Shown here one piece after another: positions 1 through 62,400 of a stretch of DNA of 64,000 nt. The translations under genes were made by a program, and so were the position numbers. Under the pieces are notes generated by a model. It had not been told where the DNA came from. It saw only the letters and a list, made by a program, of their open reading frames with translations, and made no database searches. How positions within the stretch are numbered: the first letter of the stretch is position 1; each line of letters starts with the position of its first letter. The DNA comes from Phorcus lineatus (taxonomy: Eukaryota > Mollusca > Gastropoda > Trochida > Trochidae). The DNA lies in assembly GCA_921293015.1 (NCBI GenBank), contig OV121088.1:16219645-16283644 (forward strand). The letters are read 5' to 3'.

Positions 1-1722
1 GATTTCGAAAAGGTCGATCAACTGTAGATAGCATGTTCACATTACAAGGCATTGTTAGTAAGTACCTATCCAAAGCCACAGGAGGTAGGATGTATTGTTT
101 CTTCATTGACTTTAACAAAGCGTTTGACTGTGTGGATCATTCACTACTGTGGTACCGACTCATCGGTTATGGAATTCATGGGGATTTTCTTTACGTTGTG
201 AGGGACATGTACTCTAAACTAAAATCGTGTGTGAGAACTGCGACTGGTATAACTGATTATTTCAATTGTTGTGTGGGAACCCGCCAGGGTTGTATGATAA
301 GTCCAACATTATTTTCACTATTTATAAATGAACTGGTGACGGAACTCAAAAACGGAAACTGTCGGGGAATATTTATCTCAGAAACGGAACCAAATTTGTG
401 CTCTTTACTTTACGCTGATGACGTGGCAAATGCAGCAGACAGTGCCGGTAGATTGCAGCAGCAAATCGACTGTATAAGTAACTTTTGTACAAAATGGGGA
501 ATGAGCCTTAACCTTTCAAAATCAAAGATTTTAGTTTTCAGGAATGGCGGGAGATTGAGACATTACGAAAAGTGGTTCTTCGAAGGGGAGGAAATAGAAA
601 CTGTCTCATACTACAAGTACTTAGGAAATATCTTTACGCCAAAATTAATCTGGACGAAAACTACAACAGTATTAGCACAGCAAGCAGAAAAAGTCTGTCT
701 TCTTATATATAGAATTCATTCCATATCTGGCGGTTTGACCATAAACACTGCTATTAAGATGTTTGACGCTATGGTTCTTCCTATTCTAACATATGGAGCA
801 GAAATCTGGGGATACCAAATGTATGAAAGAATAGAAAAGGTACAGACTTCTTTCCTAAAGCGAATTTTAGGCCTTCCAAAAACAACAAGTAATGCTGCCG
901 TCCTAGGGGAAACTGGCCGACAAAAAATCTTCATTCATCTCGTGTTAAAATGTATCAAATATTGGACTAAACTCTTAACCATGGATCTCAATCGCATTCC
1001 TAAACAAACGTACCTGATGTTGTATGGACTGGAGGAAGCTGGACGCACATCATGGGCAACTCACATAAAAAACATCCTATTTCAATACGGGTTTGGTTAT
1101 TCATGGGTATTTCAGGACGTGAGGGATGCAGGACTTTTTCTATCAAATTTCAAACAGCGTATTCAGGACTGTGGGTCTCAGCAATGGCATATTGATATTC
1201 TTGAAAAACCCAAATTAAGAACTTACTCTACTTTTAAAATGAATTTACAATTGGAGCCATATTTATACTGTATAAATGCTAACCCTTTTAAAGAAACTTT
1301 AACTCGATTCCGATGTAGCTGTCATCAACTCCGGATTGAAACAGGACGTCATCAAAACGAAGAAGAGAATGAAAGAACATGTTTCTACTGTGCAAGGTCA
1401 GGCTTAACGTATATAGAAAATGAGTACCACTTTATAATGATTTGTAATGCATATTCACAATTGAGGGTCAGGTACTTAGATAGGTATTATTATACAAATC
1501 CAACCTACATTAAATTCATTAATCTTATGTCAACACAAAGTAAATCTACACTATGTCAGTTATCCAAGTTTATATTTTTTGCCTTAAAGTACAGATTGTC
1601 ACTCAAAGTTTAATGTATTTCATGTTATATTTGTATATATGTATATTTTTGGATATTTTGTATTGATATGTTCATTGGGCCAGTGGCCTACAAACTTCAC
1701 TAATAAACTTATTCATTCAACA
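1..1722 (+). mobile_element. Non-LTR retrotransposon (LINE), 3' portion
   Basis: The copy enters from beyond the left window edge and runs through the reverse transcriptase ORF to a short AT-rich 3' UTR that ends in an AATAAA-like stretch followed by ATTCATTCAA near 1720. The next base pairs belong to another LINE on the opposite strand that is cut in mid-domain, so the junction near 1715-1722 looks like the 3' insertion boundary of this element. The same family recurs at about 52225-52960, whose protein aligns with this one through the whole reverse transcriptase core. Confidence 0.85.
3..1613 (+). CDS. LINE ORF2 reverse transcriptase, C-terminal part (5' end outside window)
   Basis: Reverse transcriptase that would copy the element's RNA at a nicked target. 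The frame is open from base 3, before the first ATG at 33, and reads GFRKGRSTVD, a typical RT motif, so the ORF starts outside the window. Counting from the ATG at 33: FIDFNKAFD (residues 24-32, first catalytic Asp), RQGCMISP (84-91) and YADD (127-130, the catalytic pair). A thumb region and a long C-terminal tail follow, with Cys/His-rich stretches (CSCH near 435, CFYC near 455). There is no internal stop or frameshift, so this part looks young. Which non-LTR clade it belongs to cannot be decided by eye; it resembles the Jockey/I-type group. Confidence 0.85.
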   Translation, partial: FRKGRSTVDSMFTLQGIVSKYLSKATGGRMYCFFIDFNKAFDCVDHSLLWYRLIGYGIHGDFLYVVRDMYSKLKSCVRTATGITDYFNCCVGTRQGCMISPTLFSLFINELVTELKNGNCRGIFISETEPNLCSLLYADDVANAADSAGRLQQQIDCISNFCTKWGMSLNLSKSKILVFRNGGRLRHYEKWFFEGEEIETVSYYKYLGNIFTPKLIWTKTTTVLAQQAEKVCLLIYRIHSISGGLTINTAIKMFDAMVLPILTYGAEIWGYQMYERIEKVQTSFLKRILGLPKTTSNAAVLGETGRQKIFIHLVLKCIKYWTKLLTMDLNRIPKQTYLMLYGLEEAGRTSWATHIKNILFQYGFGYSWVFQDVRDAGLFLSNFKQRIQDCGSQQWHIDILEKPKLRTYSTFKMNLQLEPYLYCINANPFKETLTRFRCSCHQLRIETGRHQNEEENERTCFYCARSGLTYIENEYHFIMICNAYSQLRVRYLDRYYYTNPTYIKFINLMSTQSKSTLCQLSKFIFFALKYRLSLKV

Positions 1723-3073
1723 TGTAATCCCCACTTGTCTGCGTACGTTTCTAAAATTGATAACTGTTTTTGAAGGCCCGATATAACATCAGATACTAAG
1801 ATTACATCATCAGCAAACAATAACAATAATATTTCGAGCATGTCGGGAAATAACTGAACACCAAACTTGCCATGCTTTGCTATTTCGAATGATAGTTCGT
1901 TGATAAAAAAGGAAAATAAAAGGGGACTCAATATACAACCCTGTCTTAAACCCATAGGACATTCAAAATAATCAGTTGATATATTATTACTCTTAACACA
2001 AGCTTTAACGGAGTTATAGATACTTTTCAGTGCTCGAAGCATCTTACCACTCAAACCACAGTCATATAGGCATTCCCATAATTTATTTCGGTCTATCGAA
2101 TCGAAGGCCTTGCGGAAATCGACAAAGGCAACATATAATTTCTTTTTTTCTTCATTAAAGTTTTTTGAATAATAGCATACAGTGTAAAAATATGGTCAGC
2201 AGCGGAATAACCGCTTCGAAAACCAGCCTGGGTTTCTGACAACTTGTCTCTTATATTGGCCCAATTTGTTAATCTAACATTGAGAATACTAGTGTAAACC
2301 TTACTTAAGGTGCATAGTAAGGATATACCTCTATAATTATCAGGATTATCCTTATTCCCCTTCTTATGTAGAGGTATGATGATTGCCTTTGACCACTCGT
2401 CCGGGAATATAGCATCATTAAACATCCTGTTGAATAATATTATCAGATATGGGGTTATGATGGTCTCTGAACATTTAAGCATTTCAATTATTATGTGATC
2501 ATTTCCTGCCGATTTTCCATTCTTTAAATGGTGTATAGCATCATGGATTTCCTTACTAGTTATGGACGATTCCAAAATATATGTATCAAAATCATCAAGG
2601 GCTTTTTCATCTTGAACATTGGTATCGCTTTTGCTAGGCTGTAAATCTGCGCTATTAAAAACATTCTTAAAATGGTTCAGCCAGTTAACAGGTTTAATAT
2701 TAGAACTTCTAATGTCTTTACGTGAAATACTTCTTAACTCTTTCCAAAATCGAGATGAATTATTGATATTATCCCGAAGGATGTTTCTTTTTCTTGTTTG
2801 GTAGTCAAATTTTGAGTTTCGACAAACACTTTTGTATTTGTTTCTCACCGTACAGTATGCACGTTTTGTTGCATATGATTTATTTCGTCTAAATCTTCTC
2901 AAATACTTCCGTGCTTCTTGCTTCGCATTTTTACATTTATAATCGTAAAATCCATTGTAACGGTTAACAGATCCAGTTTTAAATGTTTTTTTCATACAAT
3001 GACAGGCCGAAAGAATAGTGTTTACAAACAGTTGTAGACTTTCGTTTACGTTATCCTCAACTCCATGAATCAT
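1713..3073 (-). pseudogene. LINE reverse transcriptase, frameshifted and 3' truncated
   Basis: Two minus-strand frames together make one RT. 2093-3073 holds the linker and fingers, with LKNGKSAGNDHI, WSKAIIIPLHKKG, NYRGISLL and QAGFRSGYS. A frame slip in an A/T-rich run near 2143-2160 moves the next motif (VAFVDFRKAFDSID) into the frame used by 1713-2090, which carries LRQGCILSP and FADD. The palm is cut after ADKWGLHV, where LNKTKxxVF should follow, exactly at the junction with the plus-strand LINE. It is a dead copy. Confidence 0.8.
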
Positions 3074-3084
3074 ATCCTGAAATG

Positions 3085-4041
3085 CTAGGGAAGATTATTT
3101 AGTGAAGTTAAAAACTCTGAGGCCAACTCATCGTTCCACTTATAAATGAAATTATCAGTACACTCGTCCGCATTTTGTATTTGTGGTAAATCAAACACGA
3201 CATCGTCTCTATCGAAATCGAAAAAAAGAGTCACGGGCATATGTTTTGATTCGACTCTAGAATCTACCTTTAGATCATGATGCAGGTAGAATAAATCACT
3301 AGTACCAATGAAGTAATCAACCGAACTACAACCCTGAGGTGATATATAGGTAAACTCGCCGGTATTGTCGCTAGGGGTTCTCCCGTTAAAAATATAGAAG
3401 TTATGCGAAAAGCATAGCTCGATCAGTTTGCGACCGAATGTGTTTACAAAACTGTCACATGATTGTCTTTCACTAACTGGCACAGATACTTCCTCTGGGA
3501 AAGCAGCCTCGTCTAAACCATGATAGTCGAGTGTCTCTGGTGGGTTGTTACCCCCACCTACACGAGCGTTCAGATCTCCACAGATAATGACGTCACATCC
3601 ATGGTCAGCGTGGTCAATCAGCCATTGGTCGATCTGCTCGATAGCGGTTGTCCCGTCTGCTGCAGCATAAAACGTTGAGCCAATAGGTGGTACATATGTT
3701 GCAAACATCAGGACATCTTTATTGTTGCCAACTATACTTTTATCTAATTTGATACAGACAACATTGTCAATATCTATTTTAATATGTTGGCATTTACAAG
3801 CTAGAGTGTGTTTAAGTAGAACGACCACTCCGCCGGATAATCTTCCAGCCTTTGCTATTTTATGCGCTTTTGATAAGAACATATCATAAGCTGGGAACTG
3901 GGTGATTGACGTTAAATTGTCTATAAATGTTTCCACCAAACAAATGAAATCAAAGTTTTCTATATATTCAATGAAATCTGGAATATCAACCTTTGAAAGA
4001 AAACCTTCTATATTCCAGGTTAAAAGTTTAAATTTTGAGTT
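3085..4041 (-). pseudogene. LINE APE-type endonuclease domain
   Basis: An endonuclease/exonuclease/phosphatase fold that nicks target DNA before reverse transcription. In frame upstream of the ATG at 3939 the minus strand reads KLLTWNIEGF, then DFICLVETF (catalytic Glu region), GGVVVLL, GDLNARVG (catalytic Asp-Asn) and SSVDYFI. The last motif reads SKHMPV where SDHxPV is usual, so a catalytic Asp appears to be lost. A TAG stop at 3085 ends the frame. The reverse transcriptase linker continues in another frame from about 3090, so the polyprotein is broken here. Confidence 0.75.
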
Positions 4042-4104
4042 ATAAGTAGAGTGTTGTACACCTGATGATTGCTTTGGGTCGTCGTTCTGGGCCCGGCCGG
4101 CTCC

Positions 4105-8978: not shown

Positions 8979-10013
8979 TCAAGATAGAACATCTGACACC
9001 GCACTCTCAGGAACTCTAGAATGAACATAGTGTCTCTGAAACACCTCAGTGTTTTTCCATCGACCTATCTTCTGCACGATGGCTGGATCTATCCCTGCGT
9101 CGATAGCAACAGTCGCCCCTGTAGGGCGAAACGATTTGGCTGAATAACCTTGGCCCCCTAGCCCGGCCAGAACTATACACTCCTCTAACACACGGGCCAC
9201 AGTTGAAGCAGTAATAGCCTTAAAAGGGGATCTCAATGTAAGAAAAACAGCATTGTCTCCACACAGTGCTCTCTCGTTACGGGTCCTATCAATATAGCAC
9301 TTTAAAGCATCAACCGGATCTAGCTTGGGAGTGTGGTGCTTTCTCAACTCAACTGTAAAACCTGCCCTTGACAAATCATTCTTTATACCAAAAAATGTAA
9401 TCTCTGCGTCCCCTTCATCAGAAAACTGAACTTTGTCTACTGAGAAAATCACATCTCTCTCAACTCTATCCTTGACATCAAACAACTTTGCCTTAGGTGC
9501 TATATCTGAAGGTCTGAGCATAAGGGAAATGGACAACAAGCAAATAACCTTCAGCCTCAAATCCTTAATGGAGAGATGACTATTCTCTTTCCATCTAATG
9601 AACAACTCGCAAAACCTCTTAACCGGCATAACAGATGAAGAAGACAACGGTTGTGACGACCCTGACTTGACTAATGCAGCAATGAGTCTCTTTATAGCTG
9701 TGGACCTGGTCAGATCTGGTAAGGACATACCTTCATACAAAGATGAGATAGCTGAAATGGCTGTACCTAACAATGATCTGGGTTTTGTAGAACTATCAGA
9801 AACATGACACAAGAAAGATGCAAGTACCGCTTCGCTCCTTGGTGGGAAAGCCACATCCTTATCCAGACAGAAATCATAACATTTGCCTAAGATAGAGTTG
9901 TACCCTCTCAAAGTAGAACTAGCCCAACTGAGATGAAATTGATCAACTAACCAAAACGTACGGAAGAGAGAAGTTTTTGGTTGTATGAAGCATCTTTCGC
10001 AAAAAATAAACAT
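8979..10013 (-). CDS. Tyrosine recombinase (XerD/DIRS/Crypton-like), 344 aa
   Basis: Single uninterrupted ORF for a DNA-breaking and rejoining recombinase. Residues 20-150 look like the helical core-binding (SAM-like) N-terminal domain. The catalytic domain shows Arg167 in LMLRPSDIA (box I), Arg296 in KSFRPTGAT (box II), GRW (317-319) and the nucleophile Tyr329 in RHYVHS. Box II usually reads HxLR; here the His is Lys. The GRW matches the Trp seen in place of His in many eukaryotic members. Such intronless ORFs occur in DIRS, Ngaro and Crypton elements. No reverse transcriptase or RNase H of a DIRS element is found nearby, so it may be a Crypton-like or solo gene. The 80-bp direct repeats at 8333 and 8612 lie downstream of it. 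ATG at 10013 is chosen because it gives a full core-binding domain. The lack of stops suggests recent activity or domestication. Confidence 0.8.
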   Translation of the reverse strand: MFIFCERCFIQPKTSLFRTFWLVDQFHLSWASSTLRGYNSILGKCYDFCLDKDVAFPPRSEAVLASFLCHVSDSSTKPRSLLGTAISAISSLYEGMSLPDLTRSTAIKRLIAALVKSGSSQPLSSSSVMPVKRFCELFIRWKENSHLSIKDLRLKVICLLSISLMLRPSDIAPKAKLFDVKDRVERDVIFSVDKVQFSDEGDAEITFFGIKNDLSRAGFTVELRKHHTPKLDPVDALKCYIDRTRNERALCGDNAVFLTLRSPFKAITASTVARVLEECIVLAGLGGQGYSAKSFRPTGATVAIDAGIDPAIVQKIGRWKNTEVFQRHYVHSRVPESAVSDVLS

Positions 10014-13000
10014 TCCAAATGCTCTGGGAGTTTATTTGTAGTTATGTCAGTATGAATAATCTCAATTCAACCAAAACTTATAAATACCATACTTGTTTCT
10101 ATTTGGCTACGATAAGACATTTAGATTTGTTTTACTAGGTGCACCATTACACATGAGAATGATTGTATTATTACATTGACTAGTTGAATGGGATCCATGC
10201 AAAACCTATTTGCAAATCTCTCATTCAGCTTCATGCCTCTCACATATTATTTATCAACTTGTATAACACTTCACAGAACAACATTGATGCCTCATTAAAA
10301 GTCAGCTCAGTTATAAGGAATAACGCAGAATGGATGAACATATTATGGAATACATCAATATACAGATATTAAGTGATAAGATCTTGCTTGAACATACGAC
10401 TACATTCTTGCAAGGCATGGATCTGATGGTTTTATATCTGTTACTTTGTAAAAAGAAACTTTATTTGTGAATTGAAGAAGATGATAAACGTTAACCTATC
10501 ATATCTATCCTTTGTCTGCATTAATAAGAGGGCCCTTCTCATGCCACCCTGGTCATCTGAGCCTCTTAAAACATCAGGCCTTAGAAGTATCTTGTATTAC
10601 TGTCCTGTCAGGAAAAACAAACAATTGTCATTCATTTGACAGTGTTCATTTCAAAATTAAAAAAGCCATAGAGGTCGCAGTTCCACAGGAAGTTAGATGT
10701 CAAGAGAACTATTTTATTTTGCTTTGTGTGTGACAGTATTCCCCGCCTATAACGCCATTTAAAAATTAGAGGACGATTGGAAATAATTTGTAGACAGAAA
10801 AATGATCCAACTGACTGTTCGTGGTGAGTTTACATAACGCTATTACAAATATTTGCAATCGGACACTGTAATTAAAAAAAATAGCAAGATTGCACTGACA
10901 GGCAAATTGACATCTTCTCATGGAGAAGATTTATGTAAAATATTAAAAACAGTCAGTTACACCTTCATAACATACTTCATATACAATGTAGCTGAAAACT
11001 TCTAAACTTCGCTAATCCTATTGAAAACCCGTTTTTCTTTTTATATTTGTACGTGTTGTAACTTGCTTTACACTTCCACAGGAGAAAAACACTAACGTTT
11101 CCTTGATTAAGCTTTAAAAGGATAACAGAGTACAAATATATGTAATTTGTTAAAAATATGGTCTAATTTAAAAAAATTAGTCGTTGTTTCAGAAAAATAG
11201 CATCTTGATGATTGTGTGTTCAGTATAGAGGCTATTCTAACGGTCTTGCTTGAGAAACCTTGATATCAGAGTTTTAGCAAATTGAATGATTGGGCATCAA
11301 TCGAATCATCTGTGACATGACTGATATCAATGAAGCTGACAACCACACACTTGGTGTTCACCTTGTATGTATGAAAAAGTATCATGTTTATGTTTCACTA
11401 AATTAAAATTCGATAGTTCAAGGCGCAACGTTCTCCTCTGTCTGTAGGCCAGATCAGTGACATTTTGATTTTCAAAGGATCGTGAAGAAGAAGACTTATA
11501 ATTACGAGTTTTGTTGCTGCAAATGAAAGAGAAACTCTTCTGCTTCACTCAATAAGTTAAAATGCTATTTATCAAAGAAAGACAAATATCCATCTTATCA
11601 CTTATTCTTTTTCAGGCATATTTGCAGCAATCGGGAAAGATTTACTTTGAGAGTCTAACAACTAGTGACTGATGAAAGAGTTTATTTTTGTTGATAGATC
11701 CCAATGTTACATATGCAATCACATGGTAAAACTGAAACTCTTGCAATCTAAATTCCAGGGTAAGAAATTTATTAGAGTGGTGTAACAATTGAGCAAGTGT
11801 TAAAAGTGCTTGATCACAGATATTACGTTAAGACTGTAATTCATATAGATCTCACTGTTAAAGTCAGATATAAGAAACTATAAAAATACATCTATCTGTA
11901 ATCAGCAATCAGAATCAAACCTTCCATATCTGTGTCCCGCCTACTGGCAAAGCAAAATGAGCCCACTAATAAACCTTCACTCTCTAATCACATTAGCTTG
12001 AGCATCAACAATACATTAGATCTGTATTGATCAAGGGCAATTCTCTCTTACCCTTTGTTTAATGTTCGTGTTCTGCACCTAGCGAACATATAAAAGTGAT
12101 TAGTAATGGAACATTCAGGCCGTGGTCCGAAGGATGACATTTTCATATGTAGTGGTTCATGACCTGTTGTGTTGAAAGTAAGGAAGATTTGAGGAATAGG
12201 AAGAATAATATTAACCCCTCCTTGAGAAAATTTTTCAGTCCTTTAAACACAACTGGCATGTACATATACTAGAATATTACAAACCTAATGAAGTACAGAA
12301 AGTTTCATAGTAAGAAACGTCATTCTTTATCTCAAATAAAATCAATGGTGGCAACAATTAAAATAAACATGATTGTTAGATAAATGTCAAGCGCTGCCCA
12401 TTAGTCACTCTTATTACTGTTGTCCATCAGAGTATCAAATTAATGTATGTGGACAACCATCTGAGGGCCATAAAAAAATTCCGGATGATTGCGCCGTCAA
12501 TATAAAAAACGTATTACCTTACAAAATAAGAATTACCTGACTTTTTACGAGCTCATATTGTATTTCTGTTTTGGTTTAAAGATGTGTTATTTGGGTCTCT
12601 CGAATAGTGGTAAATTACTGCACTTTTGAGTCGTACTCGGCATTGTCTTTTTAAACTTCTTTAGATCAAACCGAAATGGTAATTTATACATATTATGCGA
12701 TGTTTTATTTGTGAGAGTGATTATCAGTTTTAAAAGGCGTGTCATCAATGTTGATTCATCTAGTTTGTAATGTCAAACCCTAAACTTCTTTTGGCGGATT
12801 GTAAAACAATTAATCACATCATTAATAGAGATAAATGTCAGAATGGTAATGAACTACCGCATTCGACATGATAAATGACCTCTCCATATAAGCGCCCCCT
12901 TACCACATTTGTAACTCACAAATACTAGGATTAACCTGCACAAACTTTCTATGTGACAAAGCCAGGTAGTTGCATTGAAACATGAGTTTAGTGTTGCATT

Positions 13001-44611: not shown

Positions 44612-44756
44612 GGATAGACGTCCCCTCTAATGTATATAACAATATGCATCAAACCCAGTATAGATTCGCTCCCTCTTTGGTATTTAAAAATGTGAATCAA
44701 ACCCAGTATAGATTCGCTCATCTATTGAATATAAGAATATGCATAAAACTAAGTAG
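44612..44756 (+). repeat. Short minisatellite, about 48-bp unit
   Basis: Two and a half units sharing AATCAAACCCAGTATAGATT and CGCTC. It runs directly into the 62-bp satellite. Confidence 0.7.
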
Positions 44757-45564
44757 TGACTGCTCTACTAAGAAGACAATTGTATTATACTTGCAGTTGT
44801 GATTGATGTTGGTTAAAGTAATTGCTATACAAAGAATACAATTGTAATATACTTGCAGTTGTGATTGTTGTTCATTAAAGTGAGTGTTTTACAAAGAAGA
44901 TTAGCGTAATATACTTGCAGTTGTGATTGATATTGATTACAGTGATTAATCTACAAATAAAAGAATTGTAATATACTTTAAGTTGTGGTTGATGTTACTT
45001 AAAGTGATTGCTATACCAAGGAGACAATTGTAATATACTTGCAGTTGTGATTGTTGTTCATTAAAGTGAGTGTTTTACAAAGAAGATTAGCGTAATATAC
45101 TTGCAGTTGTGATTGATATTGATTAAAGTGATTAATCTACAAATAAAAGAATTGTAATATACTTTAAGTTGTGATTGATGTTACTTAAAGTAATTGCTAT
45201 ACAAAGAAGACAATTGTAATATACTTGCAGTTGTTCTTATATGGTGATTTAAGTGATTGCTATACAAAGAAGACAATTGTAATATACTTGAAGTTGTGAT
45301 TGCCCTTCATTAAAGTGATTGCTATACAAAGAAGACAATTGTGATATACTTACAGTTGTGCTTATATGGTGATTAAAGTAATTGCTATACAAAGAAGACA
45401 ATTGTAATATACTTGCACCTGTGATTGTTTTTCATTAAATTGAGTGTTTTACAAAGAAGATTAGCGTAATATACTTGCAGTTGTGATTGATATTGATTAC
45501 AGTGATTAATCTACAAATAAAAGAATTGTAATATACTTTAAGTTGTGATTGATGTTACTTAAAG
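44757..45564 (+). repeat. 62-bp satellite with trimeric higher-order structure
   Basis: Thirteen tandem units of 62 bp (two are 63). The core is CAATTGTAATATACTTGCAG with TTGTGATTG. Three unit types can be told apart by their first bases: A (TGATTGCTATACAAAGAAGA), B (TGAGTGTTTTACAAAGAAGA) and C (TGATTAATCTACAAATAAAA). They follow in the order A A B C A B C A A A A B C, so an A-B-C trimer of 186 bp occurs three times. A fourteenth unit stops after about 10 bp at 45575. Confidence 0.95.
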
Positions 45565-45626
45565 TGATTGCTATTACCGCTTCATCACGCCATACTGAGT
45601 ATATTGCTTTAATGACTGACGTAAAA

Positions 45627-45886
45627 GAGTGGCTTCAGGTAATATGTTATAAAGATAATATTTAAAAATTCAAAATTTCAACTGATAAAAGTGGCAATGT
45701 TATGAGGATATAAATGTATATACCAAATGGCACCAAAACAAGTTTGTTTATATAACGAGTGGCTTAAGGTAAGATGTTATAAAGCTAATTTTTCAAAATT
45801 CAAAATTTCAACTGATAAAAGTGGCAATATTATGAGGATATAAATGTATATACCAAATGGCACCAAAACAAGTTTGTATATATAAA
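45627..45886 (+). repeat. 130-bp tandem duplication
   Basis: Two copies, 45627-45756 and 45757-45886, each starting GAGTGGCTT and ending ACAAGTTTGTNTATATA, with about 95 percent identity and no gap. Confidence 0.95.
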
Positions 45887-46466: not shown

Positions 46467-47475
46467 CTAAGTATATTTATGTTTTGAAATACCATTATAA
46501 CCAAAAGGAACACGTCCGGTGAAACGATGGAATGCGTTATTGGCCGGTACAATGGTATACACAGCCTCCATTCCGTTCATCACGTGAAAGCTGACATGAC
46601 AATGGAATAGCCATGTTCCTGGATTATCTGTAAACATCTCAACTGTCTCAGTAACGGAGGGGAAGACTTCTATGACATCCTTCCGATGTCTCTTATCCGT
46701 CCTGTGAATAACCGTCTGCCCGTGGAAGTGAACAGGATGGACATCAAAGAAAGACCCAGCTCCCAACACGTACCAAGCGACTCGTTCTCCCTCTGTCATT
46801 ATCAAACCTCGAACATTTCCGAAAATGAGACCGTTGATGGAATACTTCCTGTTCGAAAATACAAAATCAGGGTCAGTTAGATTAGCTCTGCCTGGAGCGA
46901 AAGATGCTGCATTTTCTGCAAGGTAATGACTCGCGTTTTCGTCAAAGGTATTGAAAAGAACGGCAAACTCCCTGTTGATATTGTCAGTACGCTGTCCATG
47001 AGCGTCCAAGATTCCACTTCGACAAATAACTAAAGGTCCAATAAGTCCACTGTCAATATCTTTAGCTAGGTTCACAGAAGAATGATACATCCGACCAATG
47101 CAATTTGGATCGTTTTTTCCAGGACCAGATCTTTTTGGTACTTCCCATTCATAGAGGTACGTCCCTCCAGGCGCGACGGAGTTATCTCCCTTATAAATGC
47201 TCTTATCTTGATAATCGGCCCCTTCGTTTGCTTTGTTATAGAAAAGAGCCTGAGGATGAATTGAATATGGAACAGAAGCCTTGTTCCGGAACAGAACATG
47301 AACAATGTCCCCTACTTCTGCCCGTATGAAAGGACCAAGTACTCCAAGATGTTCGTCCGTTGAAGCTCGAGGTACTTGTCTGGTGAAAGTAGCGTCTGTA
47401 TATTGACGGTAAACTGCTTTCTTGTATTTGGCTCCAATAAAGTTCGGTCCACCTCTGACAAAGGTATAGCCAGGT
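46467..47475 (-). CDS. Multicopper oxidase exon 13 (last), domains 5 and 6
   Basis: One 1,009-bp exon encodes 335 residues and the stop. Domain 5: [36 protein letters not shown] (HxH lost), [12 protein letters not shown]. Domain 6: [42 protein letters not shown] and [17 protein letters not shown], with a complete type 1 site and two HxH pairs of the trinuclear cluster. The C-terminus ([16 protein letters not shown]) is polar with no membrane anchor. An AATAAA follows at 46387. Confidence 0.9.
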
Positions 47476-50400
47476 CTAAAAATGAAAACACAAAGTGTTT
47501 TGCTTCAGATTATTTTGTACAGAGACTTAACAAGATGAGAAAAGCGAGGTGAAAACATCTGATATCTGTAACAAATTAAGCTTTGATGATGAAGCAGCAT
47601 TGTCGATGGTCCATTAACGAATATAGCAACTCATTAATATGCGTTTATTTATAACAGGATTCTCATGGGGATATGTTGTGGCTCATTTTCTTTTTATCAA
47701 AATAAGGAAATGCTCAAAATAAAAGATTGTGTATTAATGTCAAAGGCTAAACTTTCAAAGTAGCACATCAGGTACGTTAAATAAATAAGGTCGTTACTTT
47801 CAAATTACTGTGCATAACATAATAGCTCAAAACCAAAATGTTATGCCTTCCCTTTCATACGATAAGCATTTAACGTCAGAGTACATTGCTGATCAGTATA
47901 TTCTTATAAATGAAACACTTACAGTGACGGATCGGTAAGATTTCCACCTGTGATGAGGTCAATCAAGACAGGTGCGTAGTCCCAGATCACCTCCTCTGCT
48001 GCGATGAAATATCGTCGTATGTGACGTCGACCTTGACCTAGCTGATGCCGTGCACCACAGGAGAAGACGTCGTATAACGCCGTCATTCCTCTACTGAAGT
48101 GAAAGCTTACTTGACACTGCACAGACCACCGACCTATAGAGACGTAGATTATACAAGGACAATGTAAATAATTTAGTTTTCATTAATTAAGCTTAGTAGG
48201 TTCTGTAAATACGACCTGAATTCAATATCCAAAACGAATATTGTGTCACATTTAAAACTGATGTGTTCAAAACGTTCTCCTATATGAAAAGTTTTTGGGA
48301 TGAAAATTGTTCAAGTATGAAGAATTTCCTTCTGCATGTATTCTTTGATATGAATTTGGGTACTCCAAAATACGTGGAATGAATATATAATAAACTTGAA
48401 CATTTATTTTTCGATAGGTCGGCATTAAACTGGGTATTGTGAAGTACCTAGAATGACTTCTCCTCTGCGCCTACGTGTCTTACTTGATATCTCAGAAACT
48501 GGGCAATTTGAAGTACCAAGGATGTATATAGTATACTCATCTCTAGATGTATTCATTTCTATCTCCGTATGGAATTTTGTTCTTTCATAAATAATAGACG
48601 TGATAATTGTCACTGCATGAAAATCCTTGAAGACTAACTCACCAACAGTGTCTGGTACAGAGTTGAGAGTCTCTCCGATTCCCGGATTAATTCGCCTTCC
48701 CTCAACGTGATTTCCGTTAAATTCTAACGTCTGGCCGTTAAAAGCAATGCCGTGAGTGTCACGGAAGGCCCCAAGTCCGAAAATATGCCAAGTCACGTGA
48801 TCTCCAACACACACATCCAATCCAGGCAGATTGCCGAATAAGAACCCGTTGATTCCTGTAAACGTTGAAAGACCAATGAAGAACTCTTCCATGCACACTT
48901 GCATACATATTGTTTCATTTCTTCTCTAGGCAATAATATATAACTAGGTTCTTATGTATATTTTGTTTGCCCGACAACAAATGTAAATAAAATGCTGTGA
49001 TTTCTAGGTACACATATTCTCTGATGTTTTTCTTCGGAATATCTAAAAACATAAAATACATCATAAAAGAATTTTTTAACATCATCTGTGCATTCCCAAT
49101 TCTGGTATTGACATTTCAGTCAATTGCCAACTGTACCTCTCCTTTACTATCACACAGTACACAGAACTATAACGTCTACATAGTCTACATGACAACGTAA
49201 TATAATATATTCTCATGAGTAAACATGTCATATGCTCAAAAGACAACAGTGTCTGAATATCGGTATTTCCCGAGCGCGAGCAAAGATTTCTTGATTTCGA
49301 TACCTCATGATTGCAATTTGGCTTTCTGCGATAGGAGATAGAATCAGAGACATGAATCATCGAAATCTATATGCATAAAATCGGGTTTTACGATTTAATT
49401 TTGGTTGATGTTTATGCATAAAATACAACTCATTATTCTTGATTGCTCACTGATATAAAGTTTTCAATTGAGGAATTTGAAATTTGAATTGAATTTCTGT
49501 TACTGCGACATTCCAAATTTACCGAAAATATAATTAAAGTTGTGGTTGATTAATATATAATCAACGTCTTCATTTTTCTCTCAAAATTGTTTTCCGTTTT
49601 CCTTTTCCCTGCTTATACATCCATAACAGGTTGACTAAACGACAATGTTCCAAATATTACATTTAATATATATGAAGAATATCAAATGTGAGTTACATGA
49701 TGAAGACTTAGAGATCATTACGCTTGAGTTAAATAAACAAGATGTTCCCACATCATAATGAGTTATATGATAAAAACGTACCAAACATCACATTTAAGTT
49801 ATATAAAGAAGATGTAGTGACATCAAATTTGAGTTATATTATGAAGTCGTATCCAACATTCAATTTGGTGTGTGTAATGAACACTTACCGAACGTTATTT
49901 GAGTTATACGATGCGGACGTACCAAACAGCACATTTGACTTACATGATGAAGACATACTAAACTTCACATTTGAGTTACATGAGGAGGACGCATCTAACA
50001 TCAAATTTGAGTTATACGATGCAGACGTCCCAAACAGCACATTTGAGTAACGTGATGCAGACATACTAGGCATCACATTTGAGTTATATGATGAAGACGA
50101 ATCGAGCATCACATTTGAGTTATATGATGAAAACGTACCGAACATCACATTTGATGCCCCAAAGGTCGAATCTGTCTTATCGACACTGCTTGGGTCAGTT
50201 GTAAACGTCTGAATGTTTTCATCGATGTACCAGGATTCATTTTCATTCATTGTTAAAAATAACAGGTAGAAAACACGCGACTCCACGTCCTTGATTCTCC
50301 TCCAATGGGATGGCTTGCTCTGCAAAAAGAGTCAAATAAATGTATAAATGAATATATTCAAAGTCACAAAAACGAACAAGTATTTTCTGTCGTTGAATCT

Positions 50401-53400
50401 ATAATGACTCCGAATGTCCAAAACTACTAAAGCTGGCAAGAAAAATGTCAATGGAGTGGCTTGAGAGTCAATTATTCTGACTTCAGAGTAAATCAGCTGA
50501 TTTCGGTCCAAATATACATTGTAACTGCCTAAAATGTAGCAACAGTCATAACACATTGTAACATTACTTACATAAACGCCTCCCGAATTTTAATTGTTGG
50601 CTTTACATCTGCATTATTTTCAAAAGTTGTTTGTAAAACATAAAATAATGCCTAACATTGGGGTATGCCATGAAATATAAATGATTGAAATTTTGCGAAG
50701 AACATCAGGGTCCTGTTGCACAAAACAAAAAGTTAGCCATAGTGCAATGTTACAGAATGGCACTAAGGTTAACCATAGTTTTGAGTTGCTTTGTGATCCA
50801 TAAAAGAATATACATGTATAAGCTGAAAAACATGCGCACAGACAATGGTGAACCATGATGCACGTGAAAGGGTCCGTGCTTCTGGCTTGTCTCAATATCG
50901 TGCTGAAATATACACATTTGATCAGATACGAGAAGATTAAGATGCCAAGACTCAGCGAAACTAATCGTAACACAGCAACGGACATTACAGGCCGGAGAAA
51001 GTCAATCACCAGTAGACAGTCTCTTCAATGTACATAGAAGTACAATTTCCAAACTGTTGTAGCCTTTGATATTACAGGAAACCCACCGTGAAGTGGTAGA
51101 CCAAGGGCGACAATCCCACATTAGGACGATTCCGCAGAATATTTTCTTCTACGCGGAATCAGACACTGACTTCAACAAACCACGGGTAGGGGTTATATGG
51201 CAGATTTCCGCAAGTTATGAAGATATGAAGAAGGGTGATAAAACATTGTGATAATGTTCGTCAAGATCTGATGATTTGTGTACATATGTGAAGCATAACA
51301 TAACATAACATATTATCGATAGCATAGCATACTACAACTTTCAAAGATAGAATAACCATAGCTCAATATAAGTGAAATAGAATAGCACACAATCATAGGA
51401 AAACTTATACTTATTATAGCAGAACATATCATAACATAATATAGCATAGATGCCATAGCATACCAAGACGTAGCTTAAATAAAATTGAATAGCACAACAA
51501 TAAATATTATATTTCATAGCAAAGCATAGCATATAAGAACACACCGAAAGACAGAGAGTATAACAAAATATAAAGAGTACAATCCAGCATAACGCAGTAC
51601 AGCACAGAGTTATGTCCTTACCATAAATATTTCAGATATCAATCTTTATCATCCAAAACTGCTCCACAGAAGATATTGCTTGTGGAAGATCAAGCGAAAT
51701 CTCTAACAGTAGATTTTAAACAATGCCATGATACAGTCAAGTTCATGACATCACAATTGTTTTAAATCATCAAGTAATGACATCAGAATGCTACGAGGTC
51801 ATAAACATGACGACGTCACTGCTATGACATCATCGCTCTGAGAGTCTTAGTGCAGTGCAGTGTTCAGAAGTATACATTTTTCACGGAATCGAAATGAAAA
51901 ATGATTTTGGATGATAAATAGAATTTAACCCTCGTGTCTTCTGATATCAAATATATGAACACTCGTTGATACAAGTAAAAATATCCCCGGCAAGAATCGG
52001 ATACTTGTACCTTTTATCAACTCATGTTTAAATTAAAATAAAATGCTTCTGATATGTGATACCCATGTTTTTCTACCTGCATCATCATACGTTTGTTACG
52101 GCAATCTAATTGTTTCCATGGTAATCAATTTACACAAAATTTGTAACGGTTTTAACATATAATTATACTCAAGGTGAATTCTGCCACATTCTCCGAAGGC
52201 CATGACATTACATGTATATTTATTTAATTTCAATTGCTCTTGCATAGCGACGTTTGTACCTTTTCAATAACTTGTGGATAGTGAACACCCCATATCTCTG
52301 TTCCATAGGTGACTCTAGGTATAACGACTGTATTAAAAACCTTAAAAGCATCTGTACAAGAAACAATTCCATACCTGCGCTGGTAGCCATAAAACGACAA
52401 TAGAGCCTTAAATAATCAGCCTGGGATGATAAACAACTCTGTGCCCTAGCCCATGATAAGGTGGGAGTAAACACAATACCAAGATATCTATATTTATCAA
52501 CAACCTCAAATATTTTACTTTTATAGTACCACTTTTCACATGACGTAAGAGGACCACCTATCCTGAAAACCATAATTTTAGTTTTATTCAAATTTATTTT
52601 CATTCTTGTTTCATCACAGAACTTTTCAAGTACATTTATTTTTCTTTGTAGCTGAACAGCAGTATCACTAACACTAGACACATCATCCGCAAAGAATATA
52701 GCAACCACATTTGGACAATCTTGAGATATGAAAATACCATTTCTACCGTTCTTCTCAAACATTGAAGATAATTGATTAATGAAAATAATAAATATTATAG
52801 GACTCAAAATGAAGCCTTATCTTGTTCCAATATTACACTAGAAATAATCTGTTATCCCATTTGATGTTCTAACACGAGATGAAAGAGCAGAAATGTACTT
52901 CCTACTTTTCAGAAATTCTATCAAACACCTTGCCAGATAACTATTAATTGCATTAGCTATTCAGAAAGATCTTAACAGCTGTGCTGTCCTTGTACCTGTT
53001 GTAGAGGTAAACGTAAACAATGATATCAGCTTTTCAATGGTACTTCTAAGCTTAAACATATCATTGACTTAAACGCACTGTAAGGTAGTCTTTTTTTTAA
53101 ATAATGAGCAAAACCAGTCTTTGAATCAAGGGTATGAATAAAGATTTGTCTTTACGTATGTCCTGTGTTATCGAGGGTGATTGTGGACGAGTTTCAGTAC
53201 ACCAACCTCAGTGGACCAATCATAGGAATGTCCCTTCTTGCAGATAACGAGAGGACCAATGAGCCCGGTGTACACGTCTTTGACAGGGTTGACAGCAGAG
53301 TGGTATGTGTAGGTGAGGCACGGCTCATCATCTTTGGTTGGGGACGCGCTCTCCCCGACCCGGTATCTGTAAATCACTGTCTCACCTGGTTGGGCGAATT

Positions 53401-56400
53401 TTCCTGTTTTCTGCTTAGCTGAGGTAAATCAAACATTTGACTATGAAACGCATAATGAAAACTGCTACCGCAGACATATACACTATCAAAAAGGGTAGGG
53501 GATTTTTCACTTTGCATGATTTGTTTTATTGAAAACAAATGATTATCCAGGAGAGCACTAATTATTCTTCGAGAGAAATCTTTTTCAGTAAACATTAATG
53601 CCCAAACACAGCACAGTACTACCGGGACAACATCTTGGCAGCCCATGTTTTGTCAATTGTTCGGTGTCATGGCCGCCGTTTCATCTTCCAAGATGATAAC
53701 ACCAGATGTAACAGGGCTAGGATATTACTGGATACCGATCAGATACCTCCAACATCAGAATATCAACAGATTACCTTGGCTCGAATTAAAGCAGGTCGCC
53801 CATCACCCAAGCCCGGACAGCGCTTATGGCGAAGTCAATAATGACGCACCACTCACCGAGAACATGCCTCTGTATCGCAAGAAGAGTGAAATAATCTCAA
53901 TCGAAATGACTTGCGACGCCACATAAGGAATATGCCATGTCTGGGTCGTGCCTGTTTGCCCAATATAGTCTGACATGGTTTTTTACCATATGGTAAATTT
54001 GCAGATTAACCATTGGAGGTCTATGCCACGGTATGTCATTGTGTCTTTGACATGCCGAATGTATGTAATAAAATGCCCTTAGCATATTTTTATATTTTGT
54101 TCCGTTCTCGCCTGCACACGCTGCCTCTTGTAAGCCACCATAAGCCAGTAGTATAATTTTTAAATAACAAAAGATAAAAAAGTACATTTTCTTGCAAAAA
54201 TAAAACAGACAATCAGTTTACTCGTTAAAAGTAATCCGGTTTTTCCGGTTCTAATAAACATCCGTTTTATCCCGTAAGTTTGTGAGTAGTGATTATAATT
54301 CCTATTAACTGGACATATTTGATTTGACTAGTCTCCATGACCTGCTCACTTAGGCCTTGTTGCTGTGCGAAAAATCATGGTTTGAGTGCAGCGCCCTCTT
54401 CAGTGGTAACTTACTTTTATTAAGTGAACACAAAGTTCTGTCAAAGTAATCAAGTGACTTGATTTTAACTGAATATATTTCAAGACGTGTTACCCTGAGC
54501 TAGAGAAGTCGTACAACGAGTCAAGGCATGTACAAGGAATTTTTTAAACATCACGCATTCATTCGTGACTTACTGATGGGATCGTCAGTAACGAATCCTT
54601 CTTCTTCTTTTGGGAACACCAGTCCGTGCACATAGACTGAGTAGTCCCGATCAGCATTGTTTCTGAACACGATCTCGATTGTGTCTCCAACTTCTGCTTT
54701 AATAGGAGGACCGAGAAATCCAAAATGTACCTTAGTGGGATAAAAGAAGAGGTTTGAAGAAGTTAATTATATTCCATCCTGCTAAATCAGCGTATATGAA
54801 TCTGCTCTCGCTCCCTCCTAATATAGCTCCTGATCTCTTTCGGGCTAAATCCCTCGTATGGATTGATATTCGTGGCTATGCTCACCTGTTATTTTTTCAG
54901 CAAATGAAAGGTTGTTAATTTAGGAGCTTGAACTCAACGGATTTTTCCATCCGGGTTGTGCTGTTGCTGAATACGAGTCGTCTCATTGTCTGGTTAGATA
55001 GCTAGCAATACGAGGGTTTTTGCTTGAAAGAGATCAGGGTATTAAAAAGGAGCAAAAGCGGATTCATTTATGCCGATTTAGCAGAATGATTATGTTCGTG
55101 TTACAATTACGTATGTATGTCCAAGAACGTGATTCAAGATCCTGATATCTATCAAGGCATGATACACGGTGTTCCGATTTCCAGGTATTGAATTAGTATT
55201 TCAAGCACATTTCTCCGGGTAATCCAAGTTAAGAACCATGTATAACGTTAGTAAAAGGAAGCTTCCAAAAGGGTTTCTTATAAAACATATTGATATATAT
55301 ATCTTAGCACAACGAGAGAGCATTACTTAAATGCTCTGATCGGTTAGCAACGAAATATAATATTCGGATAATAACTTCATGATAACATTTATCGTATGAA
55401 AAATAAATACGTCCCTTTGATGTCGTGTGTACATGAACGAACAAGAAAATGTTCGTTTGACTAAGTCGATTCTTAAATATCGATAATTAATCATAGTTAC
55501 CTCATCAGGCCCTCTTGGCTTCCTTTGAGTGAAAGACGCGTCAGTATACTCGATGTATAATGCTTTTATATATTTCCCACCAATCCTGTTAGGTCCAGAA
55601 GCAAAGTAGAACGCCGATGAACTGGATAAAGATGAGCAAAGGTTGAAGAAAATTAACATGGTAAATTACACGGTCTCGTCATCATTCGTAAAAGTTAATA
55701 CAGGTTTGTTTGCAAATGTTGTGTTATATTCAAAGTTTACATCTGTAAGTAGTATTGCGGCACTTGCATTTTTATTTAACGTCGCAGTATAATTTAATAA
55801 TGTTTGTTTCGTAAGAATCATATAATATATACTGAATGTTCCTTTCTGTTTTTGTAATACATGAAAGCAGTCTGATTAAAATCGACCATGTTCCGAAGAA
55901 TAAAAGTTTCAAAATATTGACTTTACCGAGATTCGAACTCTATATGTGTGGGCTATCCTCTCCACTAGGTCTGACCGCAGCCTATTGTAGCGCACGTGCT
56001 GACACCAGTTTAGCGCATACAAAACCTAGTCATTAGCGAACCAATCGCATCATCGCGTTTAAAATAAGGATAGCAGAAGTCAATGTTAACGAATGGTGAA
56101 TGAGAGTTACTTGCCCCTAGCTACTGATACCGAATGCTTTTGCCGCACGCATTGTGATTGGTTAGCTGTGTTTACGTAAGAACGTGCGCTACAGTAGGCT
56201 GCGGTCAGACCTAGTGGAGAAGATAGCCCACACATATAGAGTTCGAATCTCGGTAAAGTCAATATTTTGAAACTTTTATTCTTCGGAACATGGTCGATTT
56301 TAATCAGACTGTACATGAAAGTAGAGTTGGCAATTTGGTAGTACCTTGAAACCCTTATGTCTTAAATAGGTTGATGAACATGAGCTGAATTTGATTTATT

Positions 56401-59400: not shown

Positions 59401-62400
59401 TAAGCTGGCACCTAACAATAAATAAACTTTAAAAAAAATAATCTGATCATTGCTGTCAGCTACCATGTATTAGTCTAAAAGAAATTCGCAACAGTACAGA
59501 CATTTGATGTTATTGATATCTCACTTTTCACACATCAGGGACAATTTTCTAAAAACATATTTGACTAATTTGCTGACAGTTTCGAGAACATTCACAAAAT
59601 ATTGCTTTCCTTTTTATGTAAACTGGAGGGCAAAAGAAACGCTACTACTAATACGAAAAAAATCAAACTCAGATTCAAACCCAATCGCATGAAAACACAT
59701 CGCAAAATACAAAACATAAATACTACAATGATTGTTTCATATTTAACTGTGGTATCAAACACATGCTTTTCCCAAATTTTGTCAAATTATGGTTTCACCT
59801 TTTTCACGCAAAGCAAAATAGCCCCATGCTCGTATTGGTTGTCAGAAACCCACTTTGTAAAAGAAACACTTGAAGAATAACAGGATTGACTTTAAAACAA
59901 TGTGAGCGAGCATGCGGGATGATTGAAATGGGAGCCACCTACACCCATGTTGCAAGAACGCTTGGCTGTCACCGTACAACTGTCACAAGACTAATGCAAC
60001 GTTATCGTCATTCGGGACAGACCTCAGACAGACCAAGATCAGGCCGACCGAGAGTCACAACCCACCAGGACGACCAATATCTGGGCACGTTACATCGCAG
60101 AAACGGCTTCCTGATAGTGACGTCATCGGGTAAGCAGAAGCACAGTGGCCAGATGTCTAAGGTCCAATGGCATCAGGGCATAAAGACCGTTCCGGAGATA
60201 GCTGTTGACAGCCGAACATCGCCAACGAAGACTGAGATGGGCGAGGGCGTTGGCAGAGGGTGCTTTTCTCTGACGAAAGTCGGTTCTGTCTCTTCAAAGT
60301 AGATGGAAGAGTAGGTGTCTACCGCCGTCGGGGAGAGAGAACCGCACCTTGTTGCGTTTAGGATGTGGTGCCCTACGGAAGAGGAAGTGTCATGGTTTTG
60401 GGACATTCTTCATCCCGTCGTCTGTCCCTTTCTTCGACAACAGGCATAAGGTGTGATCTTTCAACCAGACAATGCCCGATCGCACACACCTGGAGATATT
60501 CAAAACTTCCTTGCAACACACATCGACGTTTTGCCGTGGCCAACATGCTCGCGTGACATGTCACCGATCGAACATCTTTGGGACGCTTTGGATCGTCGTA
60601 TTCGTCAAGGACGTGTCAAAGACGACCACCTCAAGATAACCGCCAGCAACTTGCTCAAGCTCTCCAAGAAGAATGGCAGCGCATTCCGCGTTATGACGTC
60701 AGACGTTTGATTTCCTCTATGCGTCGGAGGGTTAATGCGTGTATTGTGGCAAGGGGAGGCCATACAAGTTATTAATGGGAGCTGTTTTCAACCCACTGAA
60801 CATGGATTTCCCTGGACTGGGATCAGTCATGACAGTGAACTTAGACTTTTTGACCCCCAAGCCAATATCAGAGACTGTGCCGTTGATACCGGAAGCTGAT
60901 TTGTTGCATTTATTTTATGAATATGATATCGTCACATATTCTTGTTGAATAAACATTTTGTTTTCTTAATTTCACTTTTGTATTTATTCTGCAATCTAGA
61001 TTTAAATACATGGTAGCGTTTCTTTTGCCCGTGAGTTTAATTGATATAATTGTAGAATTGTTACGCACCTGTGATTATTTTCTAGAAGCGTCTGGCCATT
61101 TATATGGGCTGCCAGGATGAACTCATGAAGAGACATAAAGTGAAAGACGACCTTTTCTCCAGCGTGAACAACCAACCCTGGAAGGTTACCGTAAATGTAG
61201 CCGTTGATGTTAACCATGTTGTTAGAGGTTCGGAATGCGGCATTCCCTGTTTGAAGAAGTTCTTGACACGCCGTAACATTCTGACAGTTCTGTAGACTAG
61301 CATTGATACACCAGCCTTCCTGCTCATTGATAAAATCTTGGTAGATGACAAATTCTTTGTCAACGTCTCTTCGTCGCCCCTTATCATCTAGTACACCTAA
61401 AACGATTTATTAGTATTTGACAGTGATTCGCAGGACCAGCATATGCGCTGATTAAGTTAAAGGAACCTCATTCCATTATAAACATTTTAACAGAGATAAT
61501 CAGATATTTTGGTATTAAGACCTTCAGTGATTATTTTTATAGTCTAAGATCATTGGACAAAATTCTTCCCCGCGAGGCATGAATATATATATGCTCAAAT
61601 ATGTTCAACGTACTTCTACTTAAATGTGTCAGATCTTCAATTAACTCAGGTAAACTCTAACAAATTAAAACAACAATTTGCAAAGCCATGCAGCTAGGCT
61701 TAAGTTAACCTGTGGCGGAAACTGGCGAGAATTGATGACGGGGCGATGTTGTGCTTTCGAAATAAGCGAATTCAATAAACAAAGATTTGAAAATGTTTTT
61801 AAAGGTGCCATTTCGTTTCTAAAAACAATGACTCAAATGAAAACTATGATGACGTCATACTTGTGAAAGAAAAAACATACCTTTTTTACAGGTGAAAAAC
61901 ATCCCGACCAGACCCGTAACGATATCCATGGGAGCCATCCGATGCGAATGGTAGGCCCATCCAAGACAGTTGTCGTCCTCAGCAGTAGGCGCAAATGTTT
62001 CCCTGACAACCCATTCGTACGTGTAAACTTGTCCGGGAGGAACTCCGTCATCCAGTTTGTCGGCGGGCCCTGTATTGTCTTCGTACAGAGCACCTACAGA
62101 TATGTTTTGGAAGATTTATTAACTTGAATCAAATTAGGATAGGTTTCTAATTACACTTATGAAAAATGTTAAATATAATGTTATCATTAAGAGAAACACA
62201 AATTACCAAAAATACTGACATTAATTTTGTGTATTTTATAAGTTATTAATTGTCTACGCTTACTCGTACTAGAAAATTTTTCTCTGAAATACTAAAATCT
62301 TGCGACAGTTAAATTAAGACTATTACTAGTTCTCCTCGGTACCGTTACAAAAATAACAATGATACATACCTTCAGCATTCTTCAAGTAAAAGACGCCGTG

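Follow-up and report, generated by a model that had tools for sequence, protein, structure and literature searches.

A decayed 36-bp minisatellite across an exon-intron boundary of a ceruloplasmin-like gene in Phorcus lineatus

The 64,000-nucleotide stretch of Phorcus lineatus DNA analyzed here (the window) carries a ceruloplasmin-like gene in which a 36-bp minisatellite lies across the boundary between exon 10 and its intron. We consider it likely, at roughly three chances in four, that this array is a derived and decayed boundary minisatellite of the kind called "mirages" in amphioxus, that the original donor at 50138 is the one mostly used, and that donors inside the array are used at a low level.

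The host gene was modeled on the minus strand of the window, from beyond position 64000 to a stop at 46467. A 766-residue part of its protein contained the Pfam domains Cu-oxidase_2 and Cu-oxidase_3, which together with a three-fold repeat identify a ceruloplasmin-like multicopper oxidase. When a 415-residue stretch that begins in exon 6 and ends in exon 12 was searched with phmmer, 74 distinct PDB sequences were matched at an E value of 0.001, with ceruloplasmin as the top match (E = 1.8e-232, three matched stretches). Compared with the ceruloplasmin and coagulation factor V/VIII family, the gene is a family match in which the boundary array alone is unusual. The gene is also called ceruloplasmin/hephaestin-like here. 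In the gene model, one acceptor was set at 53418 instead of 53410, which kept the frame, and comparison with the neighboring paralogue pointed to a candidate extra exon of 38 residues near 58903-58790 (84% identical). With this exon included, the array-bearing exon is the tenth in the window. Between exons 9 and 10, the intron contains a reverse-transcriptase-like open frame with an FFADD motif, as judged by eye (52220-52816, minus strand), and the intron that follows exon 4 contains a helix-turn-helix frame that by eye resembles Tc1/mariner elements (59874-60302, plus strand).

The first-pass annotation had placed a 36-bp array at the junction of exon 10 and its intron, with a unit that copies the last 16 bases of the exon together with the start of the intron. 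TRF recovered this array (68% matches), and comparisons of 16-mers bore out the copying. In unit 1 (50154-50119), 16 bases from the end of exon 10 are followed by 20 from the start of the intron, so that the repeated unit contains both exon and intron sequence of a single junction. Between 50118 and 49640, the terminal 16 bases of exon 10 recurred ten times with 12 to 15 identities; nine of these occurrences lie inside the array, and one starts at 49666. When other 16-mers of exon 10 were compared with the same interval, the best agreement was 12 identities (1 of 149); for 16-mers sampled from the gene span it was 13 (15 of 2,418). Similarity to the unit ended upstream of 50155, where six comparisons gave 7 to 11 matches in 36 bases. 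The features of the boundary are collected in Table 1.

Table 1. The array-bearing boundary in window positions (PWM, weight-matrix score; U1, duplex energy in kcal/mol)
Feature	Position	Strand	Basis
Exon 10 (window count) of the ceruloplasmin/hephaestin-like gene, phase-1 end ...SNVMF G/	50139..50319	-	Gene model; phmmer to ceruloplasmin
Predicted authentic donor GT, TCG/GTACGT	50137..50138	-	Gene model; homologous to the donor at five paralogous junctions
Exon 11; acceptor gives G/GA ATC AAC GGG (GINGFLFG)	48643..48855	-	Gene model; phmmer
36-bp minisatellite across the exon 10/intron 10 boundary, 13.3 copies	49681..50154	-	TRF
Proximal seven units, exact 36-bp register without indels, open in the exon frame, 13.5% off consensus	49903..50154	-	
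Distal decayed units (about six) with indels and stops, about 21% off consensus	49681..49902	-	
Donor-like CTA/GTATGT, in frame, +24 residues, PWM -0.52, U1 -2.8	50065..50066	-	
Donor-like TTA/GTATGT, in frame, +60 residues, PWM -3.04 (weak)	49957..49958	-	
Donor-like CAT/GTAAGT, PWM 4.26, U1 -5.5, TGA created at the exon junction	49942..49943	-	
Donor-like TTG/GTACGT, in frame, +72 residues, PWM 1.72, U1 -4.9	49921..49922	-	
Donor-like TCG/GTAAGT, top score in the array, PWM 4.86, U1 -11.2, +250 nt, frameshift, early stop	49887..49888	-	

Decay was uneven along the array. The proximal seven units differed from their consensus at 34 of 252 bases. In the next seven alignment rows, differences amounted to 20.8%, with seven indels; leaving out the last partial row gave 21.8%, with four. 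These distal counts exclude a final alignment row that extends past 49681 and has 8 substitutions and one end gap. The splice signal was kept in part. It had been claimed that each unit contains the donor; the GT is present in units 1, 3, 6, and 7 of the proximal seven, but units 2, 4, and 5 read AT, GG, and AT in its place. Of the units, only 4 and 7 (94% identical) point to a later block duplication.

Other repeats and elements were noted elsewhere in the window. Downstream of the ceruloplasmin-like gene, TRF found tandem units of 62 bp (13.2 copies) that also form a higher-order period of 186 bp (4.3 copies) at 44755-45574 and, next to this array, a 130-bp unit present twice with 94% matches (45627-45885). 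Open frames at 1713-4104 (minus strand) resembled, by eye, a LINE-type endonuclease and reverse transcriptase. A 350-amino-acid open frame at 8979-10031 (minus strand) gave a subthreshold match to Phage_integrase, a tyrosine recombinase family (24.7 bits against a cutoff of 27.1), and perhaps derives from a tyrosine-recombinase transposon. An Rfam scan of the window returned no matches.

The ancestral state of the junction was read from paralogues. A tandem ceruloplasmin-like paralogue (paralogue A, L002/L003) adjoins the window at about 16289-16303 kb of contig C13, and its exons 10, 11, and 13 are 81%, 85%, and 89% identical to those of the window gene. At the homologous junction (L002), it has one copy of the boundary sequence, TCAAATACCATGTACG on the exon side and GTACGTCGCTTTATTGTACAACTC on the intron side. 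Its donor is thus TCAAATACCATGTACG followed by GTACGT, and the start of its intron is similar to that of the window gene up to ACAACTC. In its intron part, the unit is only modestly similar to paralogue A (shuffle P = 0.034), and beyond the boundary no alignment between intron 10 of the two genes was obtained (best E value, 0.46). This intron measures 838 bp in paralogue A and 1,283 bp in the window gene, and TRF reported no array in the intron of paralogue A.

A search of the whole assembly with exons 10 and 11 gave at least 27 matches, all on contig C13 and in three clusters; the further ceruloplasmin-like clusters occupy 0.18-0.22 and 9.45-9.53 Mb. In the flanking sequence analyzed (about 119 kb on the high side, about 99 kb on the low), exon 10, exon 11, and the last exon matched nothing beyond the window gene and paralogue A, and no third gene copy was thus found. 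Seven paralogous junctions were compared. L024, L025, L026, and L028, whose donors were read by eye, each showed one phase-1 donor and a single copy of the junction; L027 and L029 have the acceptor at the same place, and their exon ends were not located. All five junctions with a readable donor (these four and paralogue A) were therefore single copy and free of an array, and among the six readable junctions, including the window gene's own, the array occurred in the window gene only. In the six further junction regions, TRF reported two rows, one for an 11-bp unit (L026, 1.9 copies) and one for an AT run of 102 bases (L029), neither of which is a copy of the junction. Used as a query against the 957.8-Mb assembly in a search that skipped very common words, the array matched only itself, on C13. 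Since the readable paralogous junctions are single copy, the array is derived and arose by tandem duplication of the exon-intron boundary. The comparison supports the annotation's view that the unit copies the exon end and the intron start, and it shows this exon end to be ancestral.

The array looks old, because its proximal units are 23% apart on average (mean pairwise difference, 0.229; range, 0.056 to 0.361; Jukes-Cantor [JC], 0.27). Four-fold sites in the last exon of the two tandem genes differed at 24 of 137 positions (0.175; JC, 0.20), a value that gene conversion could have lowered. With its units so diverged, the array does not resemble one that is freely expanding, and it is probably not subject to fast turnover.

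A splice from 50139 to the acceptor of exon 11 (48855) is in phase 1, and its product aligned by phmmer without a gap to human ceruloplasmin (4enz chain A); the junction motif that it creates is paralleled in domains 2 and 6 of the host gene. Donors were scored with a human-type PWM and by the ViennaRNA duplex with the U1 end. On these scales, the 11 modeled donors of the host gene had matrix scores of 0.52 to 7.01 and U1 energies of -5.1 to -9.4 kcal/mol. Donor 50138 scored 2.41 and -5.1; its U1 pairing was the weakest of the 11 (the others, -5.6 to -9.4), and four other modeled donors lay below it in matrix score (0.52 to 1.95).

Downstream of 50138, the reading frame is open through seven units and is closed by the TAA inside the GTAAGT at 49888. 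The translation and the recomputed joining arithmetic agree with the earlier claims that the frame is open through about seven units, that donors 50066, 49958, and 49922 add 24, 60, and 72 residues, and that 49888 shifts the frame by adding 250 nt. Among these in-frame donors, 50066 and 49958 have much lower scores than 50138. The GTAACT at 49979 and the GTAAGT at 49943 are likewise in frame, and both make a TGA at the junction when joined to exon 11. A further donor-like site at 49781 (PWM 1.72, U1 -4.9) lies beyond the open frame. The top-scoring extra donors are unproductive and score above 50138, which counts against sole use of 50138; on these scores, appreciable use of donor 49888 is possible.

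The evolution of the units fits neutrality. Differences of the proximal units from consensus were spread over the three codon positions without bias (14, 10, and 10), and 26 were nonsynonymous and 8 synonymous, a synonymous share of 0.235 compared to 0.249 in a neutral simulation. The probability of finding no stop in 84 codons under neutrality was 0.21, 0.17, and 0.12 for 34, 40, and 50 substitutions, respectively. Exon-derived and intron-derived bases had changed alike (12 of 112 versus 22 of 140; P = 0.27). The GT of units 2 to 7 had changed at 3 of 12 bases compared to 29 of 204 elsewhere (P = 0.39), which gives no support for selective keeping or selective losing of the dinucleotide in the units. 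Indels were absent from the proximal units and numbered seven in the distal ones, a contrast with a Fisher P value of 0.042 relative to substitutions (0.14 without the last partial unit) and of 0.005 relative to matched bases (0.036 without it). The lack of indels could reflect some frame constraint. However, the proximal units are also less diverged than the distal ones (P = 0.040 and 0.019), so that a younger age could account for it. Coding constraint on the units was thus unsupported by substitutions or stops, and the indel contrast remains a hint.

These results bear on three other readings of the array. In one, donors 49888 and 49943 would be used often and would act as a poison extension, with the output of the gene lowered by nonsense-mediated decay. 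Donor 49888 exceeds 50138 on both scales (4.86 and -11.2 against 2.41 and -5.1), and its U1 pairing is much stronger than that of any other array site scored; 49943 reaches 4.26, and both give premature stops. However, each is the variant of a single unit and does not recur across units, and the scoring relies on human frequencies, by which four other modeled donors also fall below 50138. We regard frequent use of this pair as unlikely. A splice rheostat, in which in-frame donors of the units compete with 50138, insert 24 to 72 extra residues into domain 4, and do so in a mix set by array length, appears quite improbable. It would draw on a unit length that is a multiple of three, on three GTs in the open frame, on the closeness of the scores of 49922 and 50138, on the indel-free proximal units, and on the use of the next unit's donor in some transcripts of human ABCA7 (PMC5954066). 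The units nevertheless show no excess of third-position changes, their synonymous share is neutral, the chance of meeting no stop is 0.12 to 0.21, the GT is gone from three of six copies and is conserved no better than other sites, the scores of 50066 and 49958 are low, and an insertion would hit a junction that aligns gap-free with ceruloplasmin. In-frame isoforms from donor competition are thus unlikely, and it is very unlikely that the array forms a heritable set of competing donors adding 24, 60, or 72 Ser/Asn/Tyr-rich residues to one of the two tandem proteins, through which repeat turnover would generate in-frame length variants. Of the original interpretation, the origin by boundary duplication stands, but the length-tuned competition of donors with Ser/Asn/Tyr-rich insertions finds little support, given the neutral units and the weak in-frame donors.

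It is also conceivable that the repeat was born elsewhere and inserted at the boundary, where repeat sequence overwrote the end of the exon, as the sharp stop of exon-array similarity at 50155 might indicate. The paralogues, however, have both the exon end, with its SNxM motif, and the donor but lack an array; the motif is found in ceruloplasmin as well, and the genome search, which skipped very common words, placed the array nowhere else. On these grounds, an inserted foreign satellite was rejected; this origin has a next to negligible chance of being correct.

Under the preferred reading, a decayed boundary minisatellite, a stretch of 36 bp that contains the exon 10 donor would have been duplicated in tandem in one of two neighboring ceruloplasmin-like genes, perhaps through slippage at a 2-bp TC microhomology. 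The array would have grown to about 13 units and then decayed. Most transcripts would be spliced at 50138, which would remove the array as part of the intron. Donors inside the array, 49888 above all, would be used at a low level and yield mostly transcripts with premature stops.

The array illustrates how boundary duplications can arise and decay without clear selection, and the tandem paralogue with its single-copy junction offers a clean paired control. If in-frame donors were used after all, minisatellite turnover would lead directly to proteins of variable length. Literature searches on such repeats and, separately, on the gene family gave no description of a boundary repeat in a ceruloplasmin-family gene, which is weak evidence of absence. 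The annotation's statement that no standard description exists can hold at most for this family; the kind of repeat is in print for amphioxus genes and human ABCA7, to which a multicopper oxidase gene is now added.

In amphioxus, the mirages of Adh3 and of the globin genes BflGb6 and BflGb9 are boundary-spanning minisatellites that reportedly do not disturb regular splicing (PMC3087553). As in P. lineatus, they are minisatellite-like tandem duplications of an exon-intron boundary in which many units carry splice signals; their units measure 10 to 72 bp in Adh3 and 150 to 160 bp in the globins, compared to 36 bp here. The mirage of BflGb6 duplicates the acceptor side, whereas the present array duplicates the donor side with a triplet-multiple unit that is open in the exon frame (PMC3087553). 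The VNTR in intron 18 of ABCA7 has a 25-bp unit and begins at and includes the exon 18 donor; its unit begins with GT, and use of the donor one unit further on retains one unit in some transcripts (PMC5954066). Its unit starts at the intron, and retention shifts the frame, in contrast to the 16 exon bases in the unit and the three in-frame donor-like sites found here; the human array differs in length among individuals, with a link to splicing (PMC5954066), whereas the present array is known from one assembly. Internal tandem repeats at exon-intron boundaries, with units of about 30 bp on average and alternative splicing, have also been described in human segmental-duplication genes (PMC2812944). 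The human structures are backed by transcripts and involve near-identical paralogous exons, whereas ours is derived from genomic sequence and its paralogues are more diverged, but both are minisatellites at exon-intron boundaries of duplicated genes (PMC2812944).
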